DNA from: Leucobacter aridicollis
Lineage (GTDB): Bacteria; Actinomycetota; Actinomycetes; Actinomycetales; Microbacteriaceae
Direction of reading: 5' to 3'
Assembly (NCBI RefSeq): GCF_024399335.1
Contig: NZ_CP075339.1
Coordinates: 3,534,001 to 3,598,000 of the forward strand
Length of the DNA stretch: 64,000 nucleotides
Part shown: piece by piece, positions 1 through 57,190 of the stretch
Numbering within the stretch: the stretch's first letter is position 1
Layout: each line of letters begins with the position of its first letter
Notes under the pieces: generated by a model
The model's input: only the letters and a program-made list of their open reading frames with translations
What the model was told of the DNA's origin: nothing
Databases searched by the model: none
Made by a program: the position numbers and the translations under genes

Positions 1-2067
1 CGCCCAGAGCGCGCCCGCGCCACTTCCGAGCACGGCGAGCACCGCTGCGGCCTGCGTAGCGAGCGGGGCCGTGACGTCGCCGACAACGAGCACAAGCTTG
101 TCTGGCACGAACGTCGCCCCGCGCACAACGCGGAGCCCGTCGGCGAGCTGCGCCGCGTAGCGGGCTGAGTCGATGATGTGGTTCACGGCGGCGTCGAGCT
201 CGCGCATGGGGGCGCCGGTGCACGCGGCGAGGTCGGTGATGAGGCGGTCACGGGCAGCGGCGGTCGCGAGTGCGACGCGTCGCAGGCGAACCGCGCGGCC
301 TTCATGTCGGAGCTCCGACCACCGCGTCGCTGCCTGCCGCGCGAGCGTCGCGGCGGCATCAGGATCCAGATCTGCCTGCGTCAACGCGACTGTCTCGTCG
401 AGCCGTTCGCCGCGCAGCACGATCTCTCCCGCCTGGCGAAGCAGCCCGCGGGCCCATTCGCGGTTTGCGGCAAGGCTCCCGTCAGTCGGCGGCTCATTTG
501 CGAAACCTGTGCGTGAGACGACGGGGATCGCGTGCTGTGGAGCGACGGCCTCAAGAATCACCTCTCCCGTGGCGTTCCGCGCAAGGCCGAGAACAGCGGC
601 TGTCAGGCCGCCGGTGTCGTGGGTCGCCGGCTCGTCGGGGGCGCGGTAGAAGAGTGCACTGTCGCGCTCCGTCGGGTCCCACTCGCGGGCGCGCTGCTGC
701 GTTCGATGGCTTGCCGCCGGCGGCTCTGCAGCGAGCGCGGCAGCCTTCCGAAAGACCTCGTCCGTCAGGTGAGTTGGGTCAGGATCGGCGGCCTCCGCGA
801 GAAGTCCAACCAAATAGCCGAGCAGTTCGGCATACTCCCCCTTCGGGGTCACGGGAAGGCGCAGCCGCACATCTGGCACGGCGTTCTCGTCGTTCACGAG
901 CGCGGCAGCGAGGCCGGGGGCGAGGCCGCACCGCAATTGAAGCGCGTACAGCTTGTCGGAGCCGAGCCTCGTCGCGGCCGCAATGGTCGCCGCGGCGATG
1001 CGCGGATCCTCAGTCGCGACAATGGGCCGCAGCACCGATGCCCGGCTCGGCTGCAGGGCGACCTCGATGAGACGCAACAACTGGGCGGCACGCTCAACCG
1101 GCTCCTCGATCACGGCGACAGGCAGACCGCTCTGGATCGATGCGACCCGCTCAGCCGCCGCAACGTCGCCGAGCCCAATCACAACATCGACGGGTGCGCC
1201 GCCGTCTGCAACACGTCGGCGCGCGAATCGATGGATCGCTGCGTAGGTCTCCCAGGAGTCTGGTAGCTCAGCGAACAGCCGCACACCAACCTCGAGCCTG
1301 TCGAGCTCGGAACAGCCAAACGCTCTGGTGAGGAACTCGGTCAGCCGCTTCGCCCAGACCGTGTCTCGTGGCTCAACGAGGAGACGTACGCCGTGCTCAC
1401 GCGCCGCCTCAAGCACTGGCCGTACTCGCTCAACTGCAAGCGCGAGGTCTGCCTCTATGCTCCACTCGTCGGCACCAGGCACGAGTCGCGCAGGATCAAA
1501 CGCGAGCTCCCGAACCGCCGGCTGTGCTGCGAGCGTGAGGAGGCGCTCAACTTCCCGCTTGCCGCCTTCGTCACCGAACACCTCGGCGCCAGTCAGCGAC
1601 ACGAGTACCGAGTGCCCCCGCTCTTTGTGCACCCGAACAGCGTCGGAGAGCGCCGACATGCGACCCGAGAACTTGAGCTGGAGCAGCACGTCTGGAAGCC
1701 GGGCGAGCAGGTTCTTGCGCGCGGCCGGACGCACGACCCACGGCAGCCCGAGCGACGCGACACCGCCAGCGCGAAGCAGCAGTCTGTCGCGAGTCGGCAT
1801 GCTCTCAGGCAGCTCACCTTTCGAGACCCCACGCAGGCCGACTGCCGCGGTAAACGCGTCAGATGTGCCGAAGAGCGAATCAATGAGGCGCCGGGTAAAG
1901 TCGAGGCTCTCAGGGCTCGTCGCGAGCTCTCCGAGCAGGCCTGTGCGGGGCGAGTGATGACGCCCGTCGACGTCAGGCAGCGCACTCTCCCAGGCGCTCA
2001 CGCGCTGGCGTGTGGCCTCCGCGACAGACTCCCACACCGACTCGACGTTCACCTGCTCGTCTCCCAT
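1..2067 (-). CDS. PutA-like proline dehydrogenase / P5C dehydrogenase, degenerate ProDH half, 3' end outside window
   Basis: I translated this region by hand on the minus strand. It is open for 689 codons from an ATG at 2067 to the window edge. The N-terminal part has the outline of bifunctional PutA. It is followed by the linker signature GFANEPPTDGSLAANREWA (usually GFxNEPxTDxxxxxNREWA) that leads into the aldehyde dehydrogenase domain; its catalytic Cys and Glu would lie outside the window. The ProDH half is odd. The usual NLDMEEY strand reads LVEPRDTVW, the FAD/substrate strand VRLVKGAN reads VDVVIGLGD, and VLQAYLP reads VGVRLFAELP. This suggests loss of proline oxidation, leaving perhaps P5C dehydrogenase or scaffold function. 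Being PutA-related is quite certain; activity is not. Confidence 0.8.
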   Translation of the reverse strand, partial: MGDEQVNVESVWESVAEATRQRVSAWESALPDVDGRHHSPRTGLLGELATSPESLDFTRRLIDSLFGTSDAFTAAVGLRGVSKGELPESMPTRDRLLLRAGGVASLGLPWVVRPAARKNLLARLPDVLLQLKFSGRMSALSDAVRVHKERGHSVLVSLTGAEVFGDEGGKREVERLLTLAAQPAVRELAFDPARLVPGADEWSIEADLALAVERVRPVLEAAREHGVRLLVEPRDTVWAKRLTEFLTRAFGCSELDRLEVGVRLFAELPDSWETYAAIHRFARRRVADGGAPVDVVIGLGDVAAAERVASIQSGLPVAVIEEPVERAAQLLRLIEVALQPSRASVLRPIVATEDPRIAAATIAAATRLGSDKLYALQLRCGLAPGLAAALVNDENAVPDVRLRLPVTPKGEYAELLGYLVGLLAEAADPDPTHLTDEVFRKAAALAAEPPAASHRTQQRAREWDPTERDSALFYRAPDEPATHDTGGLTAAVLGLARNATGEVILEAVAPQHAIPVVSRTGFANEPPTDGSLAANREWARGLLRQAGEIVLRGERLDETVALTQADLDPDAAATLARQAATRWSELRHEGRAVRLRRVALATAAARDRLITDLAACTGAPMRELDAAVNHIIDSARYAAQLADGLRVVRGATFVPDKLVLVVGDVTAPLATQAAAVLAVLGSGAGALWA

Positions 2068-45770: not shown

Positions 45771-46799
45771 TCAGTAGTGCATCGTGCGGTCGACTGCTTC
45801 GAGGATACGGTCTGCGTCGGGCAGGAACATTCCCTCGAGCCTGGCAGGCGGGAACGGCACGTCGTAGCCCGAGACGCGTAGCACGGGCGCCTGGAGCGAG
45901 TAGAACGCGTGCTCGGCCACGTGCGCGGCGAGTTCGCTGCCCAAGCTGACGTTGCCCGAAGCCTCCTGCGCAACGACGAGGCGCCCCGTCTTCCGCACTG
46001 ACTCGAGTAGCGGCGCGTAGTCGACTGGCGAGATGCTGCGGAGGTCGACGACCTCGATGCTCGTGCCCTCGGCACGCGCGACCTCGGCGGCCTCAAGCGC
46101 GGCGGTGACCATTGCGCCGAACGCGACGATCGTGCAGTCGGTTCCCTCACGGGCGACCCGGCTGTCGTGCAACTGCGCGGTCGGAGCGGTCGGATCGACC
46201 TCACCCTTCATCCAGTACTTTGCCTTCGGCTCGAAGAACAGCACTGGATCCTGCGACTGGATCGCCTGCTGGATCATCCAGTAGGCGTCGTTTGGCGTTG
46301 AGGGAGCGACGACTCGCAGGCCCGGGGTGTGCGCGAAGTACGCTTCGGGGCTCTCCTGGTGGTGCTCGACGGCGCCGATGTGCCCGCCGTACGGGACGCG
46401 AATGACGATCGGCATCGGCACCTTGCCGTCGTGCCGGTTCGTGATCTTCGCGAGCTGCGTCACGATCTGATTGAACGCGGGGAAGATGAAGCCTTCGAAC
46501 TGGATCTCGATGACCGGACGGTAGCCGCGCATCGCAAGCCCGATGGCGTTGCCGACGATGCCTGCCTCCGCGAGCGGGGTGTCGAGCACGCGCGCCGATC
46601 CAAAATCGGCCTGAAGCTTGTCGGTGACACGGAAGACGCCGCCCAGGGGGCCGATGTCCTCGCCCATGAGCAAGACCTTCTCGTCGGCGGCCATCGCGGC
46701 CCGCAAGCCCTCGTTGATGGCTCGCGCGATCGGCAGCTCCGTGCGCTCGGTGAGCGTCTGGACGCTGGGCGCCGTGGATGTTGCTACTGCACCGGTCAT
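45771..46799 (-). CDS. bkdB: branched-chain 2-oxoacid dehydrogenase E1 beta
   Basis: Transketolase-type subunit of 342 aa: INEGLRAAMAADEKVLLMGEDIGPLGGVFRVTDKLQ, LAEAGIVGNAIGLAMRGYRPVIEIQF and VVDLRSISPVDYAPLLESVRKTGRLVVAQEA. It pairs with E1 alpha to decarboxylate branched 2-oxoacids using thiamine diphosphate. The start overlaps the E1 alpha stop by ATGA. The term bkd rather than pdh rests on its separation into two subunits and similarity to actinobacterial BkdB. Confidence 0.92.
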   Translation of the reverse strand: MTGAVATSTAPSVQTLTERTELPIARAINEGLRAAMAADEKVLLMGEDIGPLGGVFRVTDKLQADFGSARVLDTPLAEAGIVGNAIGLAMRGYRPVIEIQFEGFIFPAFNQIVTQLAKITNRHDGKVPMPIVIRVPYGGHIGAVEHHQESPEAYFAHTPGLRVVAPSTPNDAYWMIQQAIQSQDPVLFFEPKAKYWMKGEVDPTAPTAQLHDSRVAREGTDCTIVAFGAMVTAALEAAEVARAEGTSIEVVDLRSISPVDYAPLLESVRKTGRLVVAQEASGNVSLGSELAAHVAEHAFYSLQAPVLRVSGYDVPFPPARLEGMFLPDADRILEAVDRTMHY

Positions 46800-47983
46800 G
46801 CTGAAATCTCCTCGCCGGCCTCGAATGAAGATTCGTAGCGTTCGAGCCAGGCACGCTGCTCTTCGATGCGCGGGTGCGCCTCGGTGTACACGTTCGCGAA
46901 CATCGAGTCGGCGTCAGGCGGCGGCAACTGCAGGATCGCGTCGCGCACGCGCTTCGCCTCTCGATCGGCGACCTCGGCCACCTCGGCAAAGAATGCGTCG
47001 TCGACTCCCTGCTCACGCAGGTAAGCCTCCATGCGCGCGACCGGGTCGCGATCTCGCCACTCCTCGAGTTCCGACTTCTCACGGTAGCGCGTCGGGTCGT
47101 CACTCGTCGTGTGTGCCCCGATCCGGTAGGTCAGTGCCTCGATGTAGCCCGGGCCTGCCCCCTCGCGCGCGAGGCGCATGAACCTGCGGCCGACGGCGTA
47201 CGCGGCGAGCGGGTCGTTGCCGTCGATCTGCACAGCGCGGATGCCGAAACCGAGTGCGCGGCGGTACAGCGGGGTACGGCTCTGCCGCTCGAACGGCACC
47301 GAGATCGCCCAGCCGTTGTTTTGGACAACGAAGACCGCCGGGGTCTGGTAGCTCGCCGCGAAGATCATAGCTTCGTTCGCGTCGCCCTGGCTCGATGTGC
47401 CATCGCCGTAGAACGCCATTGTCGCTTCGCCTGTCGCGATGCCCCGCTCGCCAGCGTCCATCGCCGCAGTGCCGACCCGGAGCTTCGCGTCGAGCAGCTG
47501 CCCAAGTGCGTATCCGCTCGCGTGCTGCGCCTGCGCGGCAAGCACGAGAGTGTACAGGTGGAAGTTGCCGTTCGCGGGATCCGTGACATCCCACCCGCCG
47601 TGCGTGAAGCCACGGAACAGTTTCAGCAGTTCAACAAAGCTCACGCCGCGCACCTTCGCGACGGTGTGCTCGCGGTATGCGGGGAAGATGTGATCCTGCG
47701 GCTCGGTGGCGTGCGCGAGGCCGACCTGGCAGCCCTCTTGCCCGATGCTTGGAACCCACAGGGCGAGCTGCCCTTGGCGCTGCAGGTGGGTCGCCTCCGT
47801 GTCGAACGCACGGGTTTCGACCATGTCGCGGTACCACTGCTTGAAATCTTCGATACCAACGCCGTCAAGCTCCGCTGCGTAGTCTGCTGCGGAGCTTGAC
47901 GGGGAGTACCGACCTTCGGCGTCTAGGAAGCGAATCGGCTCTGGATCCACCATGTTAACGGCGAGCTTTGGGGTCTGGCTCAT
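46796..47983 (-). CDS. bkdA: branched-chain 2-oxoacid dehydrogenase E1 alpha
   Basis: ThDP-dependent subunit of 395 aa with the ThDP motif region ATMAFYGDGTSSQGDANEAMIFAASYQTPAVFVVQNNGWAIS, the phosphorylation-loop-like YRIGAHTTSDDPTRYR and SIGQEGCQVGLAHA. First gene of the bkdA-bkdB-bkdC-SDR cluster. The ATG at 47983 (MSQTPK) is chosen; a TTG at 47992 is possible. Confidence 0.92.
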   Translation of the reverse strand: MSQTPKLAVNMVDPEPIRFLDAEGRYSPSSSAADYAAELDGVGIEDFKQWYRDMVETRAFDTEATHLQRQGQLALWVPSIGQEGCQVGLAHATEPQDHIFPAYREHTVAKVRGVSFVELLKLFRGFTHGGWDVTDPANGNFHLYTLVLAAQAQHASGYALGQLLDAKLRVGTAAMDAGERGIATGEATMAFYGDGTSSQGDANEAMIFAASYQTPAVFVVQNNGWAISVPFERQSRTPLYRRALGFGIRAVQIDGNDPLAAYAVGRRFMRLAREGAGPGYIEALTYRIGAHTTSDDPTRYREKSELEEWRDRDPVARMEAYLREQGVDDAFFAEVAEVADREAKRVRDAILQLPPPDADSMFANVYTEAHPRIEEQRAWLERYESSFEAGEEISA

Positions 47984-48078
47984 AGTGCTCAAGTGTAGTG
48001 AGAGGGGTCATTCCGACTGGGATATATCAACGTCGGCGCTAGTGGCCGACGCACAGCGATTGCTGCAAGAATTGGTGC

Positions 48079-48486
48079 ATGCGGTCAATCATGCGAGTAC
48101 TTGTCAGCACGTTCGCGCTGTGGCTCACGACGCTCATCGTCGGCGGGTCGGGCCCGCGCGGGTTCTGGATCGAGCCGATCAATGACGACCCGTACTCCCC
48201 CATCATCACGATGCTCCTCGTCGCGCTCGTGTTCGGCCTCGTGAACGGCACGCTCGGCAAGGTCGTGCGCATCGTGTCGATTCCGCTCTACATCATCACG
48301 CTCGGCCTGTTCGGCCTCATCGTGAACGGAATTCTCATCTCGGTCATCGCATGGCTCTCCGGTCTCGCCGGTTTCGGGCTGCACGTCGATGGCTTCTGGT
48401 GGGGTGTACTCGGCGCGATCGTGATGTCGGTGCTCGCGAGCATCATGAACGGTCTGCTCGGCACGAATCGCAAGCGCAAGCGCTAA
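48079..48486 (+). CDS. phage_holin_4_2 (DUF360/PF04020) family small membrane protein
   Basis: Four-helix membrane protein of 135 aa: LVSTFALWLTTLIVGG, IITMLLVALVFGLVNGTLGKVVRIVSIPLYIITLGLFGLIVNGILI and WWGVLGAIVMSVLASIMNGLLG. The family is common on actinobacterial chromosomes and, despite its name, is not evidence of a prophage. The C-terminus is basic (NRKRKR). An ATG at 48091 is an alternative start. Function unknown. Confidence 0.85.
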   Translation: MRSIMRVLVSTFALWLTTLIVGGSGPRGFWIEPINDDPYSPIITMLLVALVFGLVNGTLGKVVRIVSIPLYIITLGLFGLIVNGILISVIAWLSGLAGFGLHVDGFWWGVLGAIVMSVLASIMNGLLGTNRKRKR

Positions 48487-48819
48487 CGACCGCCCCGCTG
48501 ATGACACGGGGTCATCGGCGACACCTCGAGGCCCGCGATTGAACGTCGCGCGGCGCTGTTCGGCGCGCCCTCCGACACGGAGTCACACGAAACCGCGCGA
48601 AGTTTTCCACACCGTATCCACAACCACTCCACAACCTATCCACCGACTTATCAACAGGGTGTTGAACAGCTCGAACCCTTATTACACAACGATAATTACA
48701 CCGTTGTCATTCGATCTGTGCATAGTTATCCACATTCGCGATCCCGTGAAATGTGCACAGTTGCCCTCATGGGAGAATGGTCGGGTACGTTCACCCGCAA
48801 CTCACACAACGGAGAACCC
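48487..48819. other. gene-free region upstream of purB holding a DnaA-box cluster
   Basis: No gene is present in this 333-base stretch. It is unusually AT-rich in 48600-48760 and contains DnaA-box-like 9-mers: TTTTCCACA 48603-48611, GTATCCACA 48614-48622, CTATCCACC 48636-48644, TTATCAACA 48648-48656 and a perfect TTATCCACA 48726-48734. All have the same orientation. They precede purB. Confidence 0.75.
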
Positions 48820-50199
48820 ATGACCAGCCTGCCCCCGCAGCCCATCAGCCCCCTCGACGGACGCTATCGGAAGGCGGTCGAAGGGCTTGGCGACACCCTC
48901 TCCGAGGCCGGGCTGAACAAGGCTCGCGTACACGTCGAGGTCGAATGGCTCGCCTACCTGACCACGCACTCGCTACTCGGTGGGACACCGATGGGCGACG
49001 CGCAGCTCGCAGCATTGCGCGAGTGGGCGCAGAACTTCGGCCAGGCCGAGATCGACGAGCTAGCCGAGACCGAGAAGACCACCCAGCACGACGTGAAGGC
49101 CGTGGAGTATCTCGTCCGAGCACGTCTCGAGGCGCAGGGACTCGGTCACCTCGCAGAGCTCACCCACGTGTGCTGCACGAGTGAAGACATCAACAACCTC
49201 TCGTACGCGCTTACCGTCAAGCAGGCTGTCGCAGACGTGTGGCGCCCGAAGTTCGTCGCAGTCATCGACGAACTCGAGCGCCAGGCTCAGAACTACAAAG
49301 ACCTCGCGATGATGAGCCGCACGCATGGCCAGCCTGCGACCCCCACCACGCTTGGCAAGGAGCTTGCGGTCTTCGTACACAGGCTCCGCCGCCAGCTGCG
49401 CCAGATCGATCAGATCGAGTACCTCGGGAAATTCTCGGGCGCGACGGGCACGTTCGCAGCGCACCTCGCTGCAGACCCGAGTGCTGACTGGGAAACGATC
49501 TCCCGCGAGTTCGTCGAGGGGCTTGGCCTGACCTGGAACCCACTCACGACCCAGATCGAGTCACACGACTGGCAGGCCGAGCTCTACTCGCGCATGGCGC
49601 ACGCCAACCGCATCCTGCACAACCTTGCGACAGACGTGTGGAGCTACATCTCGATCGGCTACTTCCGCCAGACCCCCGTCGCGGGCGCGACGGGCTCCTC
49701 GACGATGCCGCACAAGGTCAATCCGATCCGGTTCGAGAACGCCGAGGCCAACCTGGAGCTCTCCAACGCGCTGCTCGACTCGCTCGCAGAGACGCTCGTC
49801 ACGAGCCGCTGGCAGCGCGACCTCACCGATTCGTCGGCGCAGCGCAACATTGGCGTCGCGTTCGGGCATTCGGTGCTCGCACTCGACAACATCCTCAAGG
49901 GGCTCGGACAGATCGACGCGGCCCCCGAGGTACTTGCGGCGGATCTCGACGCGAACTGGGAGGTACTCGGCGAGGCGATTCAGACAGTGATCCGCGCGGA
50001 GGTGACCGCAGGCCGCTCCACGATCAGCGACCCGTACGCCGCGCTCAAGGATCTCACACGGGGCCGCCGCATCGGCCAGGCCGAGCTCGTCGTGTTCGTT
50101 CAGGGCCTCGAAATCGGAGACGAGGCGAAGCAGCGCCTGCTCGCGCTCACGCCCGCAGGCTACGTCGGCAGCGCGGCACAACTTCTCAGCTACCTCTGA
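48820..50199 (+). CDS. purB: adenylosuccinate lyase
   Basis: Fumarase/aspartase-superfamily lyase of 459 aa acting twice in purine synthesis. It has the long-form N-terminus PISPLDGRYRKAVEGLGDTLSEAGL, THVCCTSEDINN, SRTHGQPATPTTLGKE and the family signature GSSTMPHKVNPIRFEN. The ATG at 48820 has a GGAG 6 nt upstream; the reading to 48718 crosses the DnaA-box region and is not used. Confidence 0.95.
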   Translation: MTSLPPQPISPLDGRYRKAVEGLGDTLSEAGLNKARVHVEVEWLAYLTTHSLLGGTPMGDAQLAALREWAQNFGQAEIDELAETEKTTQHDVKAVEYLVRARLEAQGLGHLAELTHVCCTSEDINNLSYALTVKQAVADVWRPKFVAVIDELERQAQNYKDLAMMSRTHGQPATPTTLGKELAVFVHRLRRQLRQIDQIEYLGKFSGATGTFAAHLAADPSADWETISREFVEGLGLTWNPLTTQIESHDWQAELYSRMAHANRILHNLATDVWSYISIGYFRQTPVAGATGSSTMPHKVNPIRFENAEANLELSNALLDSLAETLVTSRWQRDLTDSSAQRNIGVAFGHSVLALDNILKGLGQIDAAPEVLAADLDANWEVLGEAIQTVIRAEVTAGRSTISDPYAALKDLTRGRRIGQAELVVFVQGLEIGDEAKQRLLALTPAGYVGSAAQLLSYL

Positions 50200-50245
50200 C
50201 GCGGTGAGGCTTGCCGGTGTCCCGGCTCTGCGCCAGGGTTGAAGT

Positions 50246-51091
50246 ATGAGTCAGCAGGCACGCTTTGAACGCGAACGCACGATGTACCGGTTTACCGCAC
50301 GCGAAGTTACGGTGCAGGCCATCTCGCGGCCAGTACCGGCGATCGCTCGCGTGACGCTCGCCGGGCCCGACCTGTATGACTTCGAGTCGACGGGGCCCGG
50401 CGACCACGCGAAGATCTTCTTCCCGCACCCCTTCACGGGAGAACTCGTCGCACCCGTCGCGGCTGGCCCCGGCGAGGACGGTATCGTCCGGCCCGACGGC
50501 CAGACGTTCGGCCGCGACTTCACGCCGCTCAACGTTCGGGATGAAGCCGGAGGGCGCGTCTTCGACCTTGACTTCTTCCTGCACGACGACCCCGGACCGG
50601 CATCCGCGTGGGCGGAGCGCGCAGCGGTCGGAGACCGCATCGTCGTCGTCGGGCCACGCGGCACCCAGAGCGTTCCGACGGGCATCGCGTCACTGCTCTG
50701 CCTCGTTGATCCGACTGCGCTGCCCGCAACCGTACGCTGGATCAACGCGCTGCCCGAGGACACTGAGGTCGAGGTGATCGCCGACGTCGACTACGACGCC
50801 CTCGACTGGGTAGAAGAGTACCTCCGCGAGGGAACCGGACGCGAAATCCTCGTGCGCGAGCCGCTCGGTGGCCTCGATCAGGCCCTGCTCGACAGCGAGA
50901 TCACGGACGAGACCTTCGTGTTCGCCGCCGGTGATGCGAACCGCCTCATCCCGCTCCGGCGCGTGATCCGCGACGAGCTCGGGCTCCCCCGCGCGCAGTA
51001 CCAGATCAGCGGCTATTGGCGGCGTGGTGAGGCGAACTTCGACCATCACGGGCCGATCGACCCGAGCGATCCGGAGTCGATCGAGGACTAG
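50246..51091 (+). CDS. siderophore-interacting (ferric-siderophore reductase) protein
   Basis: SIP-family flavin reductase of 281 aa: FAD-binding part with ARVTLAGPDLYDFESTGPGDHAKIFFP and VRDEAGGRVFDLDFFLHDDPGPASAWAERAAVGDRIVVVGPRG, then the NAD(P)-binding SIP domain ending in the family motif YQISGYWRRGEANFDHHGP. It reduces Fe(III)-siderophores in the cytosol. No iron transporter or DtxR box was recognised beside it. Confidence 0.9.
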   Translation: MSQQARFERERTMYRFTAREVTVQAISRPVPAIARVTLAGPDLYDFESTGPGDHAKIFFPHPFTGELVAPVAAGPGEDGIVRPDGQTFGRDFTPLNVRDEAGGRVFDLDFFLHDDPGPASAWAERAAVGDRIVVVGPRGTQSVPTGIASLLCLVDPTALPATVRWINALPEDTEVEVIADVDYDALDWVEEYLREGTGREILVREPLGGLDQALLDSEITDETFVFAAGDANRLIPLRRVIRDELGLPRAQYQISGYWRRGEANFDHHGPIDPSDPESIED

Positions 51092-51110
51092 CCGCTCCCG
51101 CGCAGACAGA

Positions 51111-51146
51111 GGCCCGGGGTGTCCGCAGACGCAGACGCCCCGGGCC
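51111..51146. terminator. bidirectional terminator
   Basis: Arms GGCCCGGGG (51111-51119) and CCCCGGGCC (51138-51146) form a 9-bp all-GC stem between the convergent SIP gene and the minus-strand small membrane protein. It is followed by AATTT on the plus strand. Confidence 0.65.
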
Positions 51147-51167
51147 AATTTCTGCTCAGCGTGTGGC

Positions 51168-51452
51168 CTAGTGCCAGTCGCCCTCGGGCTTCTTCAGGTC
51201 CTTGCGAGCCTCGAGGTCTTCGTCGCTGGGCTTGCCGCCGAGGCCGAGCAGGGCCACGAACAGCAGCGACACGATGAACGCGATGGCTGTAAAGATGAGG
51301 GCGAGCACGATGGAGCGCGACGCCATGAGGACGATGAGACCCGCGAACACCGCGAGCACTCCCGAGAAGCCCAGTAGTTCGAGGGGCTTGAGGCGATCAC
51401 GACGCGACGGGTTCATCGGTTCCTGGGGCGTGTGGTCTGAGGGGTTAGTCAT
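51168..51452 (-). CDS. small two-helix membrane protein of unknown function
   Basis: Product of 94 aa with a polar N-terminus (DHTPQEPMNPSRRDRLKPLE), two membrane segments (LLGFSGVLAVFAGLIVLMASRS and IVLALIFTAIAFIVSLLFVALLG) and an acidic tail (KPSDEDLEARKDLKKPEG). I know of similar uncharacterised proteins in Microbacteriaceae but cannot give a function. It is convergent with the SIP gene and 49 bp downstream of the next membrane protein. Confidence 0.75.
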   Translation of the reverse strand: MTNPSDHTPQEPMNPSRRDRLKPLELLGFSGVLAVFAGLIVLMASRSIVLALIFTAIAFIVSLLFVALLGLGGKPSDEDLEARKDLKKPEGDWH

Positions 51453-51501
51453 CGGTCGCTTTCTACGATTCGGCTAGGACATTGGCGGCGTGCAGATCCG
51501 C

Positions 51502-52092
51502 CTAGGCATTGACAGTCGACCCCTGGTTCAGCGGGTCGGCGTCGGCTGCGGTTCGCGTGTCGAACGACGCGATCCCGAGGAAGACTCCGGCAATGATTGC
51601 GTACGCGCCGAAGAACCCAATCACGGCGACGAGGTCTCCCCGCGCAAGCAGCACGGTCACGGCGAGCAGAATGCCTGCCGCCCCAATGAGCGCAGCATCC
51701 TGCCGCGTTCCCGGCTGCACGACCATGGCGACAAACTCGAGCAGGGCAGTCACCAGTGCCCAGGCCGCAATCACGACAGCGAACGCGAGCTCGGTGCTGA
51801 GCACTGTGAGAAAGACCGCCGCGGCAACCGAGATAGTCCCAAGCGCGACCGCGATGGCGCCGCCGCCGCGCGCGCGACGCTGAAGCGCCTCGACAATGTG
51901 CACGATCCCGATCGCGACAAGGGCCGCGACAACGACCGCGAGGTCAAAGGCGAATCGTTCGTGGAAAGTCGCGCTGAAAGTAACGACGAGACCAACGGTG
52001 AGCAAGAGCACAGCTCGAAGGACGCGTACCCATTTCGGTGGGAGGAGTGCCGTGCCTGACGGTCGCGATACGGTGCCTTCGGCGATTGACAT
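51502..52092 (-). CDS. HdeD/DUF308-like membrane protein of unknown function
   Basis: Membrane protein of 196 aa with about six hydrophobic segments (VLRAVLLLTVGLVVTFSA, LAVVVAALVAIGIVHIVEAL, IAVALGTISVAAAVFLTVLS, LAFAVVIAAWALVTALLEFVAM, AALIGAAGILLAVTVLLA, LVAVIGFFGAYAIIAGVFLGIAS). The segment pattern and closing AYAIIAGVFLGIASF are reminiscent of DUF308/HdeD. Role unknown. Confidence 0.75.
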   Translation of the reverse strand: MSIAEGTVSRPSGTALLPPKWVRVLRAVLLLTVGLVVTFSATFHERFAFDLAVVVAALVAIGIVHIVEALQRRARGGGAIAVALGTISVAAAVFLTVLSTELAFAVVIAAWALVTALLEFVAMVVQPGTRQDAALIGAAGILLAVTVLLARGDLVAVIGFFGAYAIIAGVFLGIASFDTRTAADADPLNQGSTVNA

Positions 52093-52158
52093 TGTGCTCC
52101 CTCCCTGCCTCGTGGATTGTATCTTGTCTCGCTGCGAAAGATCGTGGGAGCGAGCTCG

Positions 52159-53535
52159 CTACATTCCCTGGGGCATGTCCTGGAAGCGCGAGTAGTGGCC
52201 CTGGAAGGCAACGGTGACAGTGCCGGTGGGCCCGTTACGCTGCTTCGCCAGAATGAAGTCAGCCTCGCCAGCGCGCGGATGGTCGCGGTCGCTTGCAGCC
52301 TCACGGTGAAGCAGGATCACCATGTCGGCGTCTTGCTCGAGCGAGCCCGACTCGCGAAGGTCGCTGATCGCGGGCATCTTGTCGGCACGCTGCTCAGACG
52401 CACGGTTGAGCTGGGACAGCGCGATGACCGGGACGTCAAGCTCTTTCGAGAGCAGCTTCAGCGCACGCGAGAACTCGCTGACCTCCTGCTGTCGGCTCTC
52501 AACTTTCTTACCGCTTGACAGCAGCTGCAGGTAGTCAATGACGACCATCTTGAGGCCGTGCTGCTGCTTCAGCCGTCGGCACTTCGCACGGATCTCAACG
52601 AGCGTGAGGTTCGGGCTGTCGTCAATGTACAGCGGCGACTCTGAGATGCGCGCCTGCGTGGCCGCGAGCTTTTGGAAGTCGCGGCTGTCGAGGGCGCCCT
52701 TACGCAGGGTCTGCATCGGGATGGAAGCTTCGGCCGCGAGCAAACGCATCGCGATCTCGGCGCGACCCATCTCGAGCGAGAAGAAGACCGTCGGAGCCAG
52801 GGCGTGCACGGAGGCGTGGCGGGCCACGTCGAGCGCAAGCGTTGACTTACCCATCGCGGGTCGCGCGGCGATGATGATCATCTGGCCGCCGGCAAAACCA
52901 TTCGTCATCGCATCGAGCTCGCTGAAGCCGGTTGGCACTCCGAGCATGCCGTCTGGCTGCGAGGTCGCCTTGTGGATCTCCTCCATCGCGGCATCCACTG
53001 CGAGCGAGAGCGGCACGTAGTCTTCGCTCTGCGACTCACCCGTGACGCCATAAATCTCTGACTGGGCGACATTCACAAGGTCGAGAGCTTCACCCTCGCC
53101 CGCGTATCCCATCTGCACGATGCGGGTACCGGCCTCGACGAGGCGGCGAAGGAGCGCCTTCTCGCCCACGATGTCCGCATAGAAACCCGCGTTGGCGGCG
53201 GTCGGAACGATGCTCGTCAGTGTGTGGAGGTACTCGGCGCCACCCGCCCGCTGCAGATCGCCAGACTTTGAAAGCGCGTCGGTGACGGTGATAACGTCGG
53301 TCGGCTCGCCCTGGGAGTAAAGCGACAGCACCGACTCGTAGATAACTTCGTGCTTTGGCACGTAGAAGTCTGAGCCGCGCAGCACACCAGTGACGTCAGC
53401 CACAGCGTCCTTGGACAGCAGCATGCCACCGATCGCGCTCTGCTCCGCGAGCAGGTCGTATGGCGGGGTGCGCTCGTAATCGCCGCCGCGCTGTTCTTCG
53501 TCAGGCGACGCGATACCCAGGTGTGCGATGGACAA
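52159..53535 (-). CDS. dnaB: replicative DNA helicase
   Basis: Hexameric helicase of 458 aa. The N-terminal domain begins PPYDLLAEQSAIGGMLLSKDAVADV. The RecA-like core has Walker A ARPAMGKSTLALD, LEMGRAEIAMRLLAAEA, KMVVIDYLQLLSS and LSQLNRASEQRADKMPAISDLRESGSLEQDADMV. There is no intein. The TTG start at 53535 has AAGGAG 9 nt upstream. A dense DnaA-box cluster lies 107-310 bp before the start. Confidence 0.95.
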   Translation of the reverse strand: MSIAHLGIASPDEEQRGGDYERTPPYDLLAEQSAIGGMLLSKDAVADVTGVLRGSDFYVPKHEVIYESVLSLYSQGEPTDVITVTDALSKSGDLQRAGGAEYLHTLTSIVPTAANAGFYADIVGEKALLRRLVEAGTRIVQMGYAGEGEALDLVNVAQSEIYGVTGESQSEDYVPLSLAVDAAMEEIHKATSQPDGMLGVPTGFSELDAMTNGFAGGQMIIIAARPAMGKSTLALDVARHASVHALAPTVFFSLEMGRAEIAMRLLAAEASIPMQTLRKGALDSRDFQKLAATQARISESPLYIDDSPNLTLVEIRAKCRRLKQQHGLKMVVIDYLQLLSSGKKVESRQQEVSEFSRALKLLSKELDVPVIALSQLNRASEQRADKMPAISDLRESGSLEQDADMVILLHREAASDRDHPRAGEADFILAKQRNGPTGTVTVAFQGHYSRFQDMPQGM

Positions 53536-54110
53536 GCTGTATTGCTCCTTCGGTGAGGCCTAACCTCGTTACCTTCTGATGACATACCAGACCTCAGACA
53601 TTCACCGTAGGTGCAGTGTCCGTATGGCTCAAATGCGCGGGTTGTCCACCTGTGGATAACCATGTGGAGAAGCGACGAAGAATCGCCAGAACTTGTCCAC
53701 ACGAGTGGGGATAACTTGTGGACAGATTCTCGACTTTTCCCGAAACCCGCCGTCTGATCTGGGGTTTATTGTTTCCACACAATCAAAGTTATTCAACCTT
53801 AAAGTACAACTTGAATGTTGCCGGAACTCCGGGCGTGTGGACAACTCTGTCCGCCAATTGGGAAGGTGCAGCGTGCTGCAGCTGTGGACCGCAACGCGCG
53901 CTGTTCACGAAGCGTTCATCGGCGCCAACGCGCGCCACAAGGCCCGTTCAGCGGCCCAGAAGAGGCCCGCTAGGGCTGACCACCAGAAACGCCGCCAGAA
54001 GGCGTACAGGGCGCCGTGTACGGACCTCGGCATCTGGGGAACTCACCTCACACAACAAAGCGGGGCCGGTTCCAAAATGGAACCGGCCCCGCTTGTGAGC
54101 GTGAAAACGC
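53536..54110. other. gene-free dnaB leader with oriC-like DnaA-box cluster and AT-rich stretch
   Basis: No gene in this 575-base stretch. DnaA-type 9-mers are TTGTCCACC 53642-53650 (+), TGTGGATAA 53651-53659 (perfect, minus strand), TTGTCCACA 53693-53701 (perfect, +), TGGGGATAA 53706-53714 (-), TGTGGACAG 53717-53725 (-) and TGTGGACAA 53836-53844 (perfect, -). GTTTCCACA 53771-53779 and TGTGGACCG 53884-53892 are weaker. Between the clusters 53764-53820 is strikingly AT-rich. Confidence 0.8.
54058..54094. terminator. terminator of the rpsF-ssb-rpsR-rplI operon
   Basis: A perfect 17-bp stem (54058-54074 and 54078-54094) with an AAA loop ends 16 bp after the rplI stop on the minus strand. It is one of the strongest hairpins in the window and also separates this operon from the dnaB control region. 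Confidence 0.88.
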
Positions 54111-54560
54111 TTAGCGCTGCGTGATGACCTGGAGGGTCACCTCTGCGTCGACACCCTCGTGAAGGTGGATCGTCGCCTTGTACTCGCCGGTCGACTTGAT
54201 CGACGGAAGCGAGATCTTGCGCTTGTCGACCTCGCCAATGCCAGCCTCTGACACGGCAGCTGCAACTGCAGCCGGCTTGATTGCGCCGAAGAGTCGCCCG
54301 CCAACCCCAGCCTTGGAGTGGAGACGGATCTTGCCAGCCTCGAGCGACGCCTTGAGTGCCTGCGCGTCCTCAACCGAAGCGAGAGCGCGTGCCTCGCGAG
54401 CAGCCTGCAGCTGTGCAACCTGAGCCGCGCCACCGCGGGTCCAGTGCACTGCGTAGCCCTGCGGTACGAGGTAGTTGCGAGCGTAGCCAGTCTTGACGTC
54501 TACGACGTCACCGGCAGAACCGAGGCCACGGACCTCGTGCGTGAGAATTACTTTCGCCAT
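54111..54560 (-). CDS. rplI: 50S ribosomal protein L9
   Basis: L9 of 149 aa: the N-domain [37 protein letters not shown] with the L9 signature, a long connecting helix and the C-domain [32 protein letters not shown]. Last gene of the ribosomal/ssb operon, 12 bp after rpsR. Confidence 0.97.
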
Positions 54561-54572
54561 GATGCTCTCTCC

Positions 54573-54833
54573 TTAGCGGCCGGAACCGGCGTAGGGGAGG
54601 AGAGCCATCTCGCGGGCATTCTTCACTGCCTTCGCGATCAAACGCTGCTCCTGAACGGATACGCCGGTGATGCGGCGGGCGCGGATCTTTCCACGCTCTG
54701 AAATGAACTTGCGAAGCGTCTGGACGTCCTTGTAATCAATGACGCCAACGGTCTGCTTCTTTGCGGGTGCTGCCGCCTTCGCGTTCTTGCCGCGAGCCGG
54801 CTTGCGGCTTGCACCGCTTGACTTGCCTGCCAT
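54573..54833 (-). CDS. rpsR: 30S ribosomal protein S18
   Basis: S18 of 86 aa with the core [50 protein letters not shown] and a Lys/Ala-rich N-terminus. It lacks the zinc-ribbon cysteines of the C+ paralogue, so it is the zinc-independent form. Confidence 0.97.
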
Positions 54834-54887
54834 GTTGGTCTCTTTTCGTAATGCGTCCCGGTACGCGCCCGGAACAAAATTGCTGTC

Positions 54888-55430
54888 TTAGAAGGGCTGC
54901 TCGTCGTCGAACCCGCCACCGAAATCGGAGGAGTTGTTCGACGCGGATCCGCCCTGGCCCGAATTGGTCCAGGGGTTATCCTGCTGCTGCTGGGGCTGTG
55001 CCCAGCCCGACTGACCCTGGGGCTGACCGCCACCAGCGCCACCGAAGCCGCCAACCTGCCCACGCGCAGCGCCTCGCGTCACCTGTGCGGTGGCGAAGCG
55101 GAGCGACGGCCCAACCTCTTCGACCTCAAGGTCGAGTGAGGTGCGCTGCTGGCCCTGGTTGTCGGTGTAGCTGCGCTGGGTCAGGCGACCCTGCACAATG
55201 ACTCGCATGCCCTTCGTGAGCGAAGCCGCAATATTGTCGGCGTACTCACCGTAAGCGCGGCAGCCAAGCCACAGCGCTTCGCCGTCCGACCAGTCGCCGG
55301 ACTGGCGATCGCGCACGCGCGGGGTCGAGGCGATACGGAAGGTCACCCACGACTTGCCGGCCTGACTCACGCGAGGCTCGGGATCGGCAACAAGGTTGCC
55401 GACGACAGTGATCAGCGGCTCTCCGGCCAT
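54888..55430 (-). CDS. ssb: single-stranded DNA-binding protein
   Basis: SSB of 180 aa: N-terminal OB fold (PLITVVGNLVADPEPRVSQAGKSWVTFRIASTPR, DGEALWLGCRAYGEYADNIAASLTKGMRVIVQGRLTQRSY), a Gly/Gln-rich linker and the acidic tip FDDEQPF that docks replication partners. It is 3 bp after rpsF and 54 bp before rpsR. Confidence 0.96.
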   Translation of the reverse strand: MAGEPLITVVGNLVADPEPRVSQAGKSWVTFRIASTPRVRDRQSGDWSDGEALWLGCRAYGEYADNIAASLTKGMRVIVQGRLTQRSYTDNQGQQRTSLDLEVEEVGPSLRFATAQVTRGAARGQVGGFGGAGGGQPQGQSGWAQPQQQQDNPWTNSGQGGSASNNSSDFGGGFDDEQPF

Positions 55431-55433
55431 GAG

Positions 55434-55796
55434 TTATGCACTCGCCTTCGCAGCAGCGCGAGCTGCCTTAGCCTGGTCACGCTTCGACTGAGCTGCACGC
55501 TGAGCGATGAGCTCGTCTGCGCGGAGCACCTTCGTGCGGAGAACAGCCTCAGAGATACCGAGCTGACGATCGAGCTCAGCGGTAGCCTCGGGGGTCGCGG
55601 TGAAGTTCACCACAACGTAGATGCCCTCGGCCTGCTTGTTGATCTCGTATGCCAGGCGACGCTTGCCCCAGATGTCGACGTTCTCGATCTCGCCATTCGC
55701 GTTCGTAATGACGGAGAGGAACTTCTCCATGCTAGGAGCCACGGTGCGCTCGTCGATACCGGGATCGAGGATCACCATGAGTTCGTAAGGATGCAT
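55434..55796 (-). CDS. rpsF: 30S ribosomal protein S6
   Basis: S6 of 120 aa: [56 protein letters not shown] and a C-terminal Lys/Ala-rich tail. ATG 55796 is preceded by AAGGAGG; the extension to 55901 is rejected. First gene of rpsF-ssb-rpsR-rplI. It is divergent from the mshA-like gene, 143 bp apart, which must hold both promoters. Confidence 0.96.
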
Positions 55797-55939
55797 TACT
55801 GACCCACCTCCTTCGGACTTCACGGCCACAGGATTTCTGTGACAGGAGGGTGTTTTTGCATCGTGCCTGAGCCCCAAACCGAATGTTCGGCGCACAGACA
55901 ACCTAAGAAGCCTACCATCTTCAGCCCTAAAGTGGAGCC

Positions 55940-57190
55940 ATGCGGATCGCTCTCATCTCGATGCACACGTCTCCATCGGAAATTCCCGGCTCTGGTGACG
56001 CTGGTGGGATGAACGTTGTCGTCGCAGAAGCCGCCCGTGCCCTCGGGGCGCGGGGGCACGAGGTCGTCGTCGCGACCCGAGCGACGGAGGCGCTTGCTGC
56101 CGGGGAGTATCAGCTCTTGAGCGATGACTCTCACGGCGCACCTGTGACGCTCGTCGCCCTCACAGCGGGCCCGCCACAGCTGTCGAAGGCCGAGATGCCG
56201 GGCGTGACATCTGAGTTCGCGGTCGAGCTCCGCCGCCTGGGCAGCTTCGATGCCGTGCATGCGCACTACTGGCTCAGCGGTATCGCCGCGCGTGAAGCCT
56301 GGGCGGCGGGCGGAACAGGAATTGCCGTGACGTTCCACACGATTGCCGCGCAAAAGAACGCCAACCTAGCCGCCGGCGATTCACCGGAGCCGGAAGCGCG
56401 CCTCGCGGGGGAGCGGCTACTCGCGGAAACGAGCTTCGTCATCGCCGGTAGCCAAAGCGAGCTCAGTGGGGTGATCGACTGGTACGGGGCGCCACGCGCC
56501 GGCGGTTCGGTCGTGCACCCCGGCGTCGATACTCGGCTCTTCAGCCCGCGAGCGCAGGGCGCAGTGGGTCGGGCAAGCGCGGGGTTCGAACCGCTCCGAG
56601 GAGATCGCACGCTGGGCGTTGAGCCGCACCGCATCACAGTGCTTGGCAGAATCCAGCCGCTCAAAGGCCAAGATCTCGCTGTTCGGGCTGCGGGGGAGCT
56701 GGCGAGGCGCGATCCTGAACTCTTCGCCCATACCGAGTGGGTGATTGCGGGCGAGCCCACACCGGGCGCAGAAGGCTACGCGGCGGATCTGCGCGTGCTC
56801 GCCGATCGAGAAGGAGTTCTGGATCGCTTCAGGTTTCTCCCCGCCCAGTCTCGGGCAGACGCCGCGGGATTGCTTGCCTCAAGCACACTCGTTCTCGTGC
56901 CCTCCCACTCGGAAACATTCGGGCTCACCGCGCTTGAGGCCGGCGCCTGCGGTGTACCGGTCGTCGCCGCCGGGCACACTGGCCTGGTTGAGGCAGTACC
57001 CCACGATGTTGCCGGGATCCATCTTGGCGACCGCGATCCAGCTACCTGGGCCGCTGCGATTGCCACTCTGCTACACGACGACGCGCGCCGGGCCCGGCTC
57101 GGCGCAAGCGCGCGGGCTCACGCAGTCAGTCACGACTGGCGAGCGCACGCCGCGGCGCTTGAGCGCTGCTACTCGCAGCTCGCGCGCTGA
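55940..57190 (+). CDS. mshA: GT4 glycosyltransferase, D-inositol-3-phosphate glycosyltransferase (MshA-like)
   Basis: GT-B glycosyltransferase of 416 aa closely following MshA: the N-terminal [62 protein letters not shown] and [23 protein letters not shown]. It joins GlcNAc from UDP-GlcNAc to inositol-3-phosphate, the first mycothiol step. It is somewhat shorter than mycobacterial MshA. Ino1 and MshB genes lie within the next 3 kb, which strongly supports the assignment. Confidence 0.88.

Follow-up and report, generated by a model that had tools for sequence, protein, structure and literature searches.

What does a cluster of binding sites for the initiator protein DnaA do upstream of the replicative helicase gene dnaB, well away from the chromosomal origin? 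To our knowledge, little is known beyond E. coli and a B. species about the way cells adjust the supply of helicase to initiation. The question is raised by a 64,000-nucleotide window of Leucobacter aridicollis, namely bases 3,534,001-3,598,000 of its single 3,604,182-bp contig, in which a first-pass annotation had placed an oriC-like cluster of DnaA boxes upstream of dnaB. As possible roles it had named a DnaA-titration site, a DnaA-controlled dnaB promoter and a secondary origin-like element. Unless given as contig positions, all coordinates refer to this window.

The control region of dnaB harbors seven DnaA boxes

The dnaB gene is located on the reverse strand (52159..53535) with a TTG start at 53533-53535, and its product matches the NCBIfam model TIGR00665 for DnaB above its cut-off (E 4e-153). 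The nearest named relatives of the protein come from Leucobacter, with 96% identity to DnaB of Leucobacter sp. G161. The sequence AAGGAG at 53545..53550 (−) is the likely ribosome-binding sequence. Farther upstream and on the same strand lies rplI, encoding ribosomal protein L9 (54111..54560; TIGR00158, E 3e-35), followed at its 3' side by a terminator hairpin of 17 pairs (54058..54094, −), which separates dnaB from the rplI operon. Because this hairpin closes the rplI operon, we infer that the 522 bp from the hairpin to dnaB are dnaB's own control region. A search for structured RNA across 46000-56000 returned no Rfam match at gathering score.

Allowing up to one mismatch, TTRTCCACA is found 21 times in the 64 kb, compared to a mean of 8.95 (sd 3.19, largest 19) in 100 shuffles. 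Seven of these 21 boxes, three exact and four with one mismatch, are packed into the 203 bp from 53642 to 53844, which confirms the annotated cluster. Closest to dnaB, an inverted one-mismatch box, TTGTCCACC (53642..53650, +), abuts the exact box E, TTATCCACA (53651..53659, −). The former is, judged by eye, not conserved in the alignment of Leucobacter and near relatives; box E is invariant in 11 of 11 aligned rows. Together with the one-mismatch box D, TTCTCCACA (53663..53671, −), box E forms a tandem double box with a 3-bp gap. There follow an inverted exact box, TTGTCCACA (53693..53701, +), and a second tandem double box with a 2-bp gap, which consists of the one-mismatch boxes B, TTATCCCCA (53706..53714, −), and A, CTGTCCACA (53717..53725, −). 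The distal exact box, again TTGTCCACA (53836..53844, −), has its TCCAC core present in 11 of 11 aligned rows.

The AT-rich stretch reported within this GC-rich DNA (53764..53820) was likewise recovered; it is 70% AT, compared to 65% GC for the window as a whole, and 3 of the window's 63,943 57-mers reach this AT content. On the dnaB strand it contains TTCAA...TTGAATAACTTT, and it is largely conserved in the Leucobacter alignment. The boxes had been described as flanking this stretch. This applies to the distal box at 53836, which sits on its far side, but not to the other six, which are all located between the stretch and dnaB.

Genome-wide, only oriC equals the dnaB cluster in exact boxes

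We compared the cluster with the true oriC and with the remainder of the genome. The whole genome holds 30 exact boxes versus 12 matches to the reversed control pattern. With up to one mismatch the numbers are 519 versus 456, so that most isolated weak boxes are background and clustering is the informative feature. Among the 30 exact boxes, three within 250 bp occur at two places only, oriC and the region upstream of dnaB (contig 3,587,642-3,587,844); exact pairs occur at two further places, rpmH-dnaA and tdk. Counting TTRTCCACA genome-wide against oriC had been proposed as a check on the annotated cluster, and the outcome did not refute it.

The true oriC had been expected beside dnaA, beyond the right edge of the window. 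Indeed, exact boxes are present between dnaA (contig 1-1422) and dnaN (from contig 1770), at contig positions 1446, 1456 and 1612 (box region 1446-1620). They are 16-18 kb distant from the cluster upstream of dnaB, which itself lies beside neither dnaA nor dnaN. Within the family, dnaA-dnaN regions (n = 29) carry on average 2.1 exact and 2.8 relaxed boxes. The commonest box spacing in them is 11 (8 times), and 12, 55 and 67 occur once each; this tally includes one of 30 dnaN loci with almost no upstream DNA, and the averages use 29. The box array upstream of dnaB (see below) as a copy of the oriC layout was not supported, as the family oriC spacings differ.

A secondary or relic origin would consist of DnaA boxes plus an AT-rich unwinding stretch, and the locus does offer as many exact boxes as the genome's own dnaA-dnaN gap, with the AT-rich block beside them. 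However, oriC sits at dnaA-dnaN, oriC regions of the family are laid out differently, and there is no GC-skew switch near 53.7 kb, which is a weak test given the weak skew throughout the window. The origin-like role offered by the annotation is thus hardly credible.

DnaA boxes upstream of dnaB are conserved in the family and beyond

Conservation was assessed in 100 genomes of the family, the Microbacteriaceae. A dnaB gene was found in 98 of them (the other two lacked a match, and an additional dnaB-like match in genome G035 was disregarded). Upstream DNA was read in all 98; gene starts were found for 87, and for the remaining 11 the beginning of the match was used. Within 600 bp upstream of dnaB, 81 of the 98 genomes possess an exact box, 37 at least two and 12 at least three, leaving 17 without any; as the genomes are related, these counts are not independent events. 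The annotated cluster therefore stood up to the comparison across relatives that had been called for. In total, 137 exact boxes were obtained in the family, while 300 permuted motifs averaged 0.61 and reached at most 31, a count produced by TTCTRCACA, which is itself close to the DnaA box. A coding control stretch gave exact boxes in none of 97 family genomes. As control genes we used tdk, purB and an mshA-like gene, each with its best 30 loci (out of 87, 100 and 52 genomes, respectively). An exact box was present upstream of one tdk locus, one purB locus and no mshA-like locus, and both single hits stem from the L. aridicollis genome itself, which makes the enrichment specific to dnaB. Upstream DNA was short in one tdk locus (281 bp) and one purB locus (98 bp), and several of the mshA-like loci do not start at a start codon.

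Other families of the class were represented by 60 of 191 matching genomes, hand-chosen for long N-terminal matches with one to several per family; two of the 60 have under 330 bp upstream. In about 700 bp upstream of dnaB, 35 of these 60 genomes, from 17 of 30 families, contain exact boxes. Their total of 55 compares to 0.21 on average, and at most 2, for permuted motifs; of the control stretches, 1 of 57 was positive.

The boxes form a head-to-tail array on the dnaB strand

We then considered order and orientation of the boxes. In the rplI-dnaB gaps of 87 family genomes (median 448 bp; of the 98, rplI was not found upstream in 10 and the gap was outside the limits in one), exact boxes are distributed 114:8 in favor of the dnaB strand. 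The recurring same-strand spacings of 12, 23, 32, 44, 55 and 67 fit one array of boxes A to E, with box starts at 0/12/23/55/67, arranged head-to-tail on the dnaB strand. This spacing was read off the family data first and then tested on 68 held-out named loci, most of which belong to the same family, with a few from elsewhere, for example Arthrobacter. Of 80 named loci, 12 had been excluded (11 with shared sequence, one without upstream DNA). The array scored on average 263 in the family, compared to 131 for the antisense strand, and 241 versus 127 in the held-out loci. Random spacings scored 151-177 in nine of twelve family tests and 217-231 in the three with a duplicated last offset; in the held-out test, two of ten that share offsets with the array reached 210 and 205, and the other eight 147-176. 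The steadiest pair is D-E, which is found in 62 of the 68 held-out loci; boxes of the array are often weak or missing in individual genomes.

In the window, the array is represented by A (53717), B (53706), D (53663) and E (53651), with A-B one base shorter than in the family array. The genome has no same-strand box C, and the inverted exact box at 53693 is located near the C position. The short A-B form is also the best fit in two same-genus genomes (L032, L033), in five named Leucobacter (L280-L283, L285) and in one MAG (L284). A box variant with G at position 5, TTGTGCACA, is frequent, with TGTGCACAA being present in 40 of the 98 family upstream regions, often as box C.

According to the accessible text of PMC11317965, E. 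coli DnaA favors tandem boxes separated by 2 or 3 bp, and the gaps of A-B and D-E in the window are of just this size. The E. coli DnaA regulon described there likewise features tandem boxes with 2-3 bp gaps, with purH having a weaker box in front of a perfect one. Its targets relate to replication and the synthesis of nucleotides, and the part of the paper available does not list dnaB as one of them. Unlike these double boxes, the array of Leucobacter and its family holds two double boxes with a fixed gap.

A predicted dnaB promoter is in phase with box E

A strict scan for the sigma-70 consensus called no promoter in the region upstream of dnaB. A looser pattern, TTGNNN-N16..18-TANNNT, was derived from the Leucobacter alignment and the family profile before being tested against shuffles and on held-out loci. 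In the window this same-strand pattern identifies, downstream of box E, the pair TTGAGC-N17-TACGGT (53632-53604), that is, a predicted -35 hexamer TTGAGC (53627..53632, −), which begins 27 bp after the start of box E, and a predicted -10 hexamer TACGGT (53604..53609, −). Of 80 family genomes tested, 71 have such a pair downstream of box E, compared to a mean of 1.8 (max 4) in shuffles; the remaining 18 of the 98 genomes have no clear D-E pair and were outside this test. The offset of the -35 from E is +16 in 52 genomes, +17 in 11, +25..27 in seven and +37 in one. Correspondingly, 54 of 62 held-out loci have the pair, at +16 (43), +17 (5), +27 (3) and +37 (3). The offsets thus differ between loci by steps of about one helical turn. 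In the genome itself, a same-strand pair no more than 75 bp downstream accompanies just two of the 30 exact boxes, namely E and the one at rpmH-dnaA (+50). For 64 same-strand boxes from outside the family, pairs were located at +27..29 (6), +40 (2), +49 (4) and +72/73 (3) and none at +16, which makes the +16 spacing a family trait; a class-wide promoter phase was rejected on these differing offsets.

Just upstream of the predicted -35, the array is positioned where an activator would sit. The DnaA-controlled dnaB promoter suggested by the annotation is well supported at the sequence level by conservation, strand bias, the fixed array and the fixed phase to the predicted promoter. The same boxes would be expected if the array mainly served to titrate DnaA close to oriC and thereby to delay re-initiation, dnaB being a bystander. 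The oriented array is 16-18 kb from oriC, and two other box clusters, upstream of purB and tdk, are found on the same side of oriC. In Streptomyces coelicolor, also an actinobacterium, several DnaA-box clusters near oriC (D78, H24, H69) reportedly serve titration. However, a sink needs no fixed promoter phase, strand bias or tie to a single gene, all of which are present here, and exact boxes upstream of purB and tdk occur in no other of the 30 loci each. We thus regard titration as an improbable main role, though it may be an added effect of the array.

The array is interrupted by a conserved element

A further element, CGGCGTTTC, is found between boxes C and D at a fixed place, E-28 to E-20. 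Among 72 family arrays it is exact in 53 and present with at most one mismatch in 61; elsewhere, it occurs in only 1 of 29 family oriC regions and 1 of 60 dnaB regions of the class. Its best match at the C-D site of the window is TGGCGATTC, with 2 mismatches in 9. This pattern points to a putative site for a second protein besides DnaA. Outside the boxes, the alignment revealed a conserved non-DnaA element, AAACCCCAGATCAG (53754..53767, −; family form AAAnncCtGgTCAg). An inverted repeat, TTCAA-N14-TTGAA (53792-53815), is located inside the AT-rich block and is largely conserved in the Leucobacter alignment as well. It may be a distal promoter or a regulator site.

DnaA is likely to activate dnaB around initiation

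From the boxes with their conservation, strand and spacing and from their phase to a promoter-like pair, we infer DnaA binding, promoter use, and sign and timing of the regulation for this organism. DnaA would bind the strong box E first and spread cooperatively to the weaker head-to-tail box D, and then to B and A; all four share the strand of dnaB and precede the predicted -35. Bound there, DnaA would contact RNA polymerase, always from the same side of the helix. Transcription of dnaB would most likely be activated when active DnaA is plentiful, around initiation, and the helicase would be made when the origins fire. We consider it likely that the sequence upstream of dnaB is such a DnaA-responsive control region, in which cooperative binding of DnaA activates dnaB around initiation. 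Helicase supply is thus probably tied to the start of chromosome copying.

The opposite sign has a precedent, as DnaA represses transcription at its own promoter. At the array, DnaA might similarly repress dnaB, a feedback loop by which the amounts of helicase and initiator would stay balanced, and this would give the same boxes in the same phase. Binding of DnaA at its own promoter (autoregulation) is cited in the accessible text of PMC7738170. Such repression seems unlikely to us, as the array does not overlap the predicted -35 but lies upstream of it. Activation is favored because the I282T DnaA protein of Mycobacterium tuberculosis binds less upstream of dnaB and the mutant under-expresses dnaB (PMC7738170, accessible text). 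DnaA binding upstream of dnaB is reported there for M. tuberculosis and M. smegmatis from in vitro pull-down sequencing, and from ChIP-seq for M. smegmatis. Mycobacteria belong to the same phylum and, compared by description, have a DnaA site upstream of the same gene; the available text of PMC7738170 describes this site as Rv0057 (upstream of dnaB), without an ordered array or promoter phasing. The mycobacterial finding is said to agree with DnaA upstream of dnaB in Caulobacter crescentus (Hottes 2005, as cited in the accessible text of PMC7738170), where the box type differs, being TGATCCACA (table in PMC4285127, seen as an excerpt).

The kind of regulation is therefore already known, since DnaA binding upstream of dnaB has been published for mycobacteria (PMC7738170, accessible text). 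The annotation knew of no such description for dnaB in the family, and the open literature searched contained no description of Microbacteriaceae DnaA boxes. Nor did the openly accessible text, outside of which most subscription papers lie, describe a fixed array, promoter phasing or a second site. The architecture, that is, array and phasing, thus appears to be new.

More tentatively, with chances somewhat short of even, the dnaB promoter of this family may carry a built-in sensor of active DnaA. As many as five boxes would make up a polarized, helically phased site for a DnaA filament, divided by the conserved CGGCGTTTC (degenerate in the window) for a second protein, and the sensor would activate dnaB in step with initiation. 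If so, helicase supply would be a wired output of the initiator, and evolution would have kept the distance to RNA polymerase to whole helical turns. With a DnaA array whose phase to a predicted dnaB promoter is maintained throughout a large family, the role of DnaA as a transcription factor in Actinobacteria can be tested directly and by mutation. The central conserved site of the array points to a possible partner protein besides DnaA.

Further box clusters in the genome

The purB and tdk clusters found no support as parts of a family-conserved DnaA regulon, as an exact box is present in 1 of 30 loci each, that of the own genome only. No tdk match was obtained in the two same-genus genomes sampled. 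Upstream of purB (ATG at 48820), a weaker second cluster, which the annotation did not mention, spans 48603-48760. It contains a single exact box plus several with one mismatch, and two of its boxes (48603, 48614) form a tandem pair with a 2-bp gap. The third cluster lies upstream of tdk, which encodes thymidine kinase, just left of the window (contig 3530329-3530406). It comprises two exact and four weaker matches in 78 bp, with a tandem pair at an 11-bp step, and a tRNA-Tyr gene is located about 520 bp beyond it.
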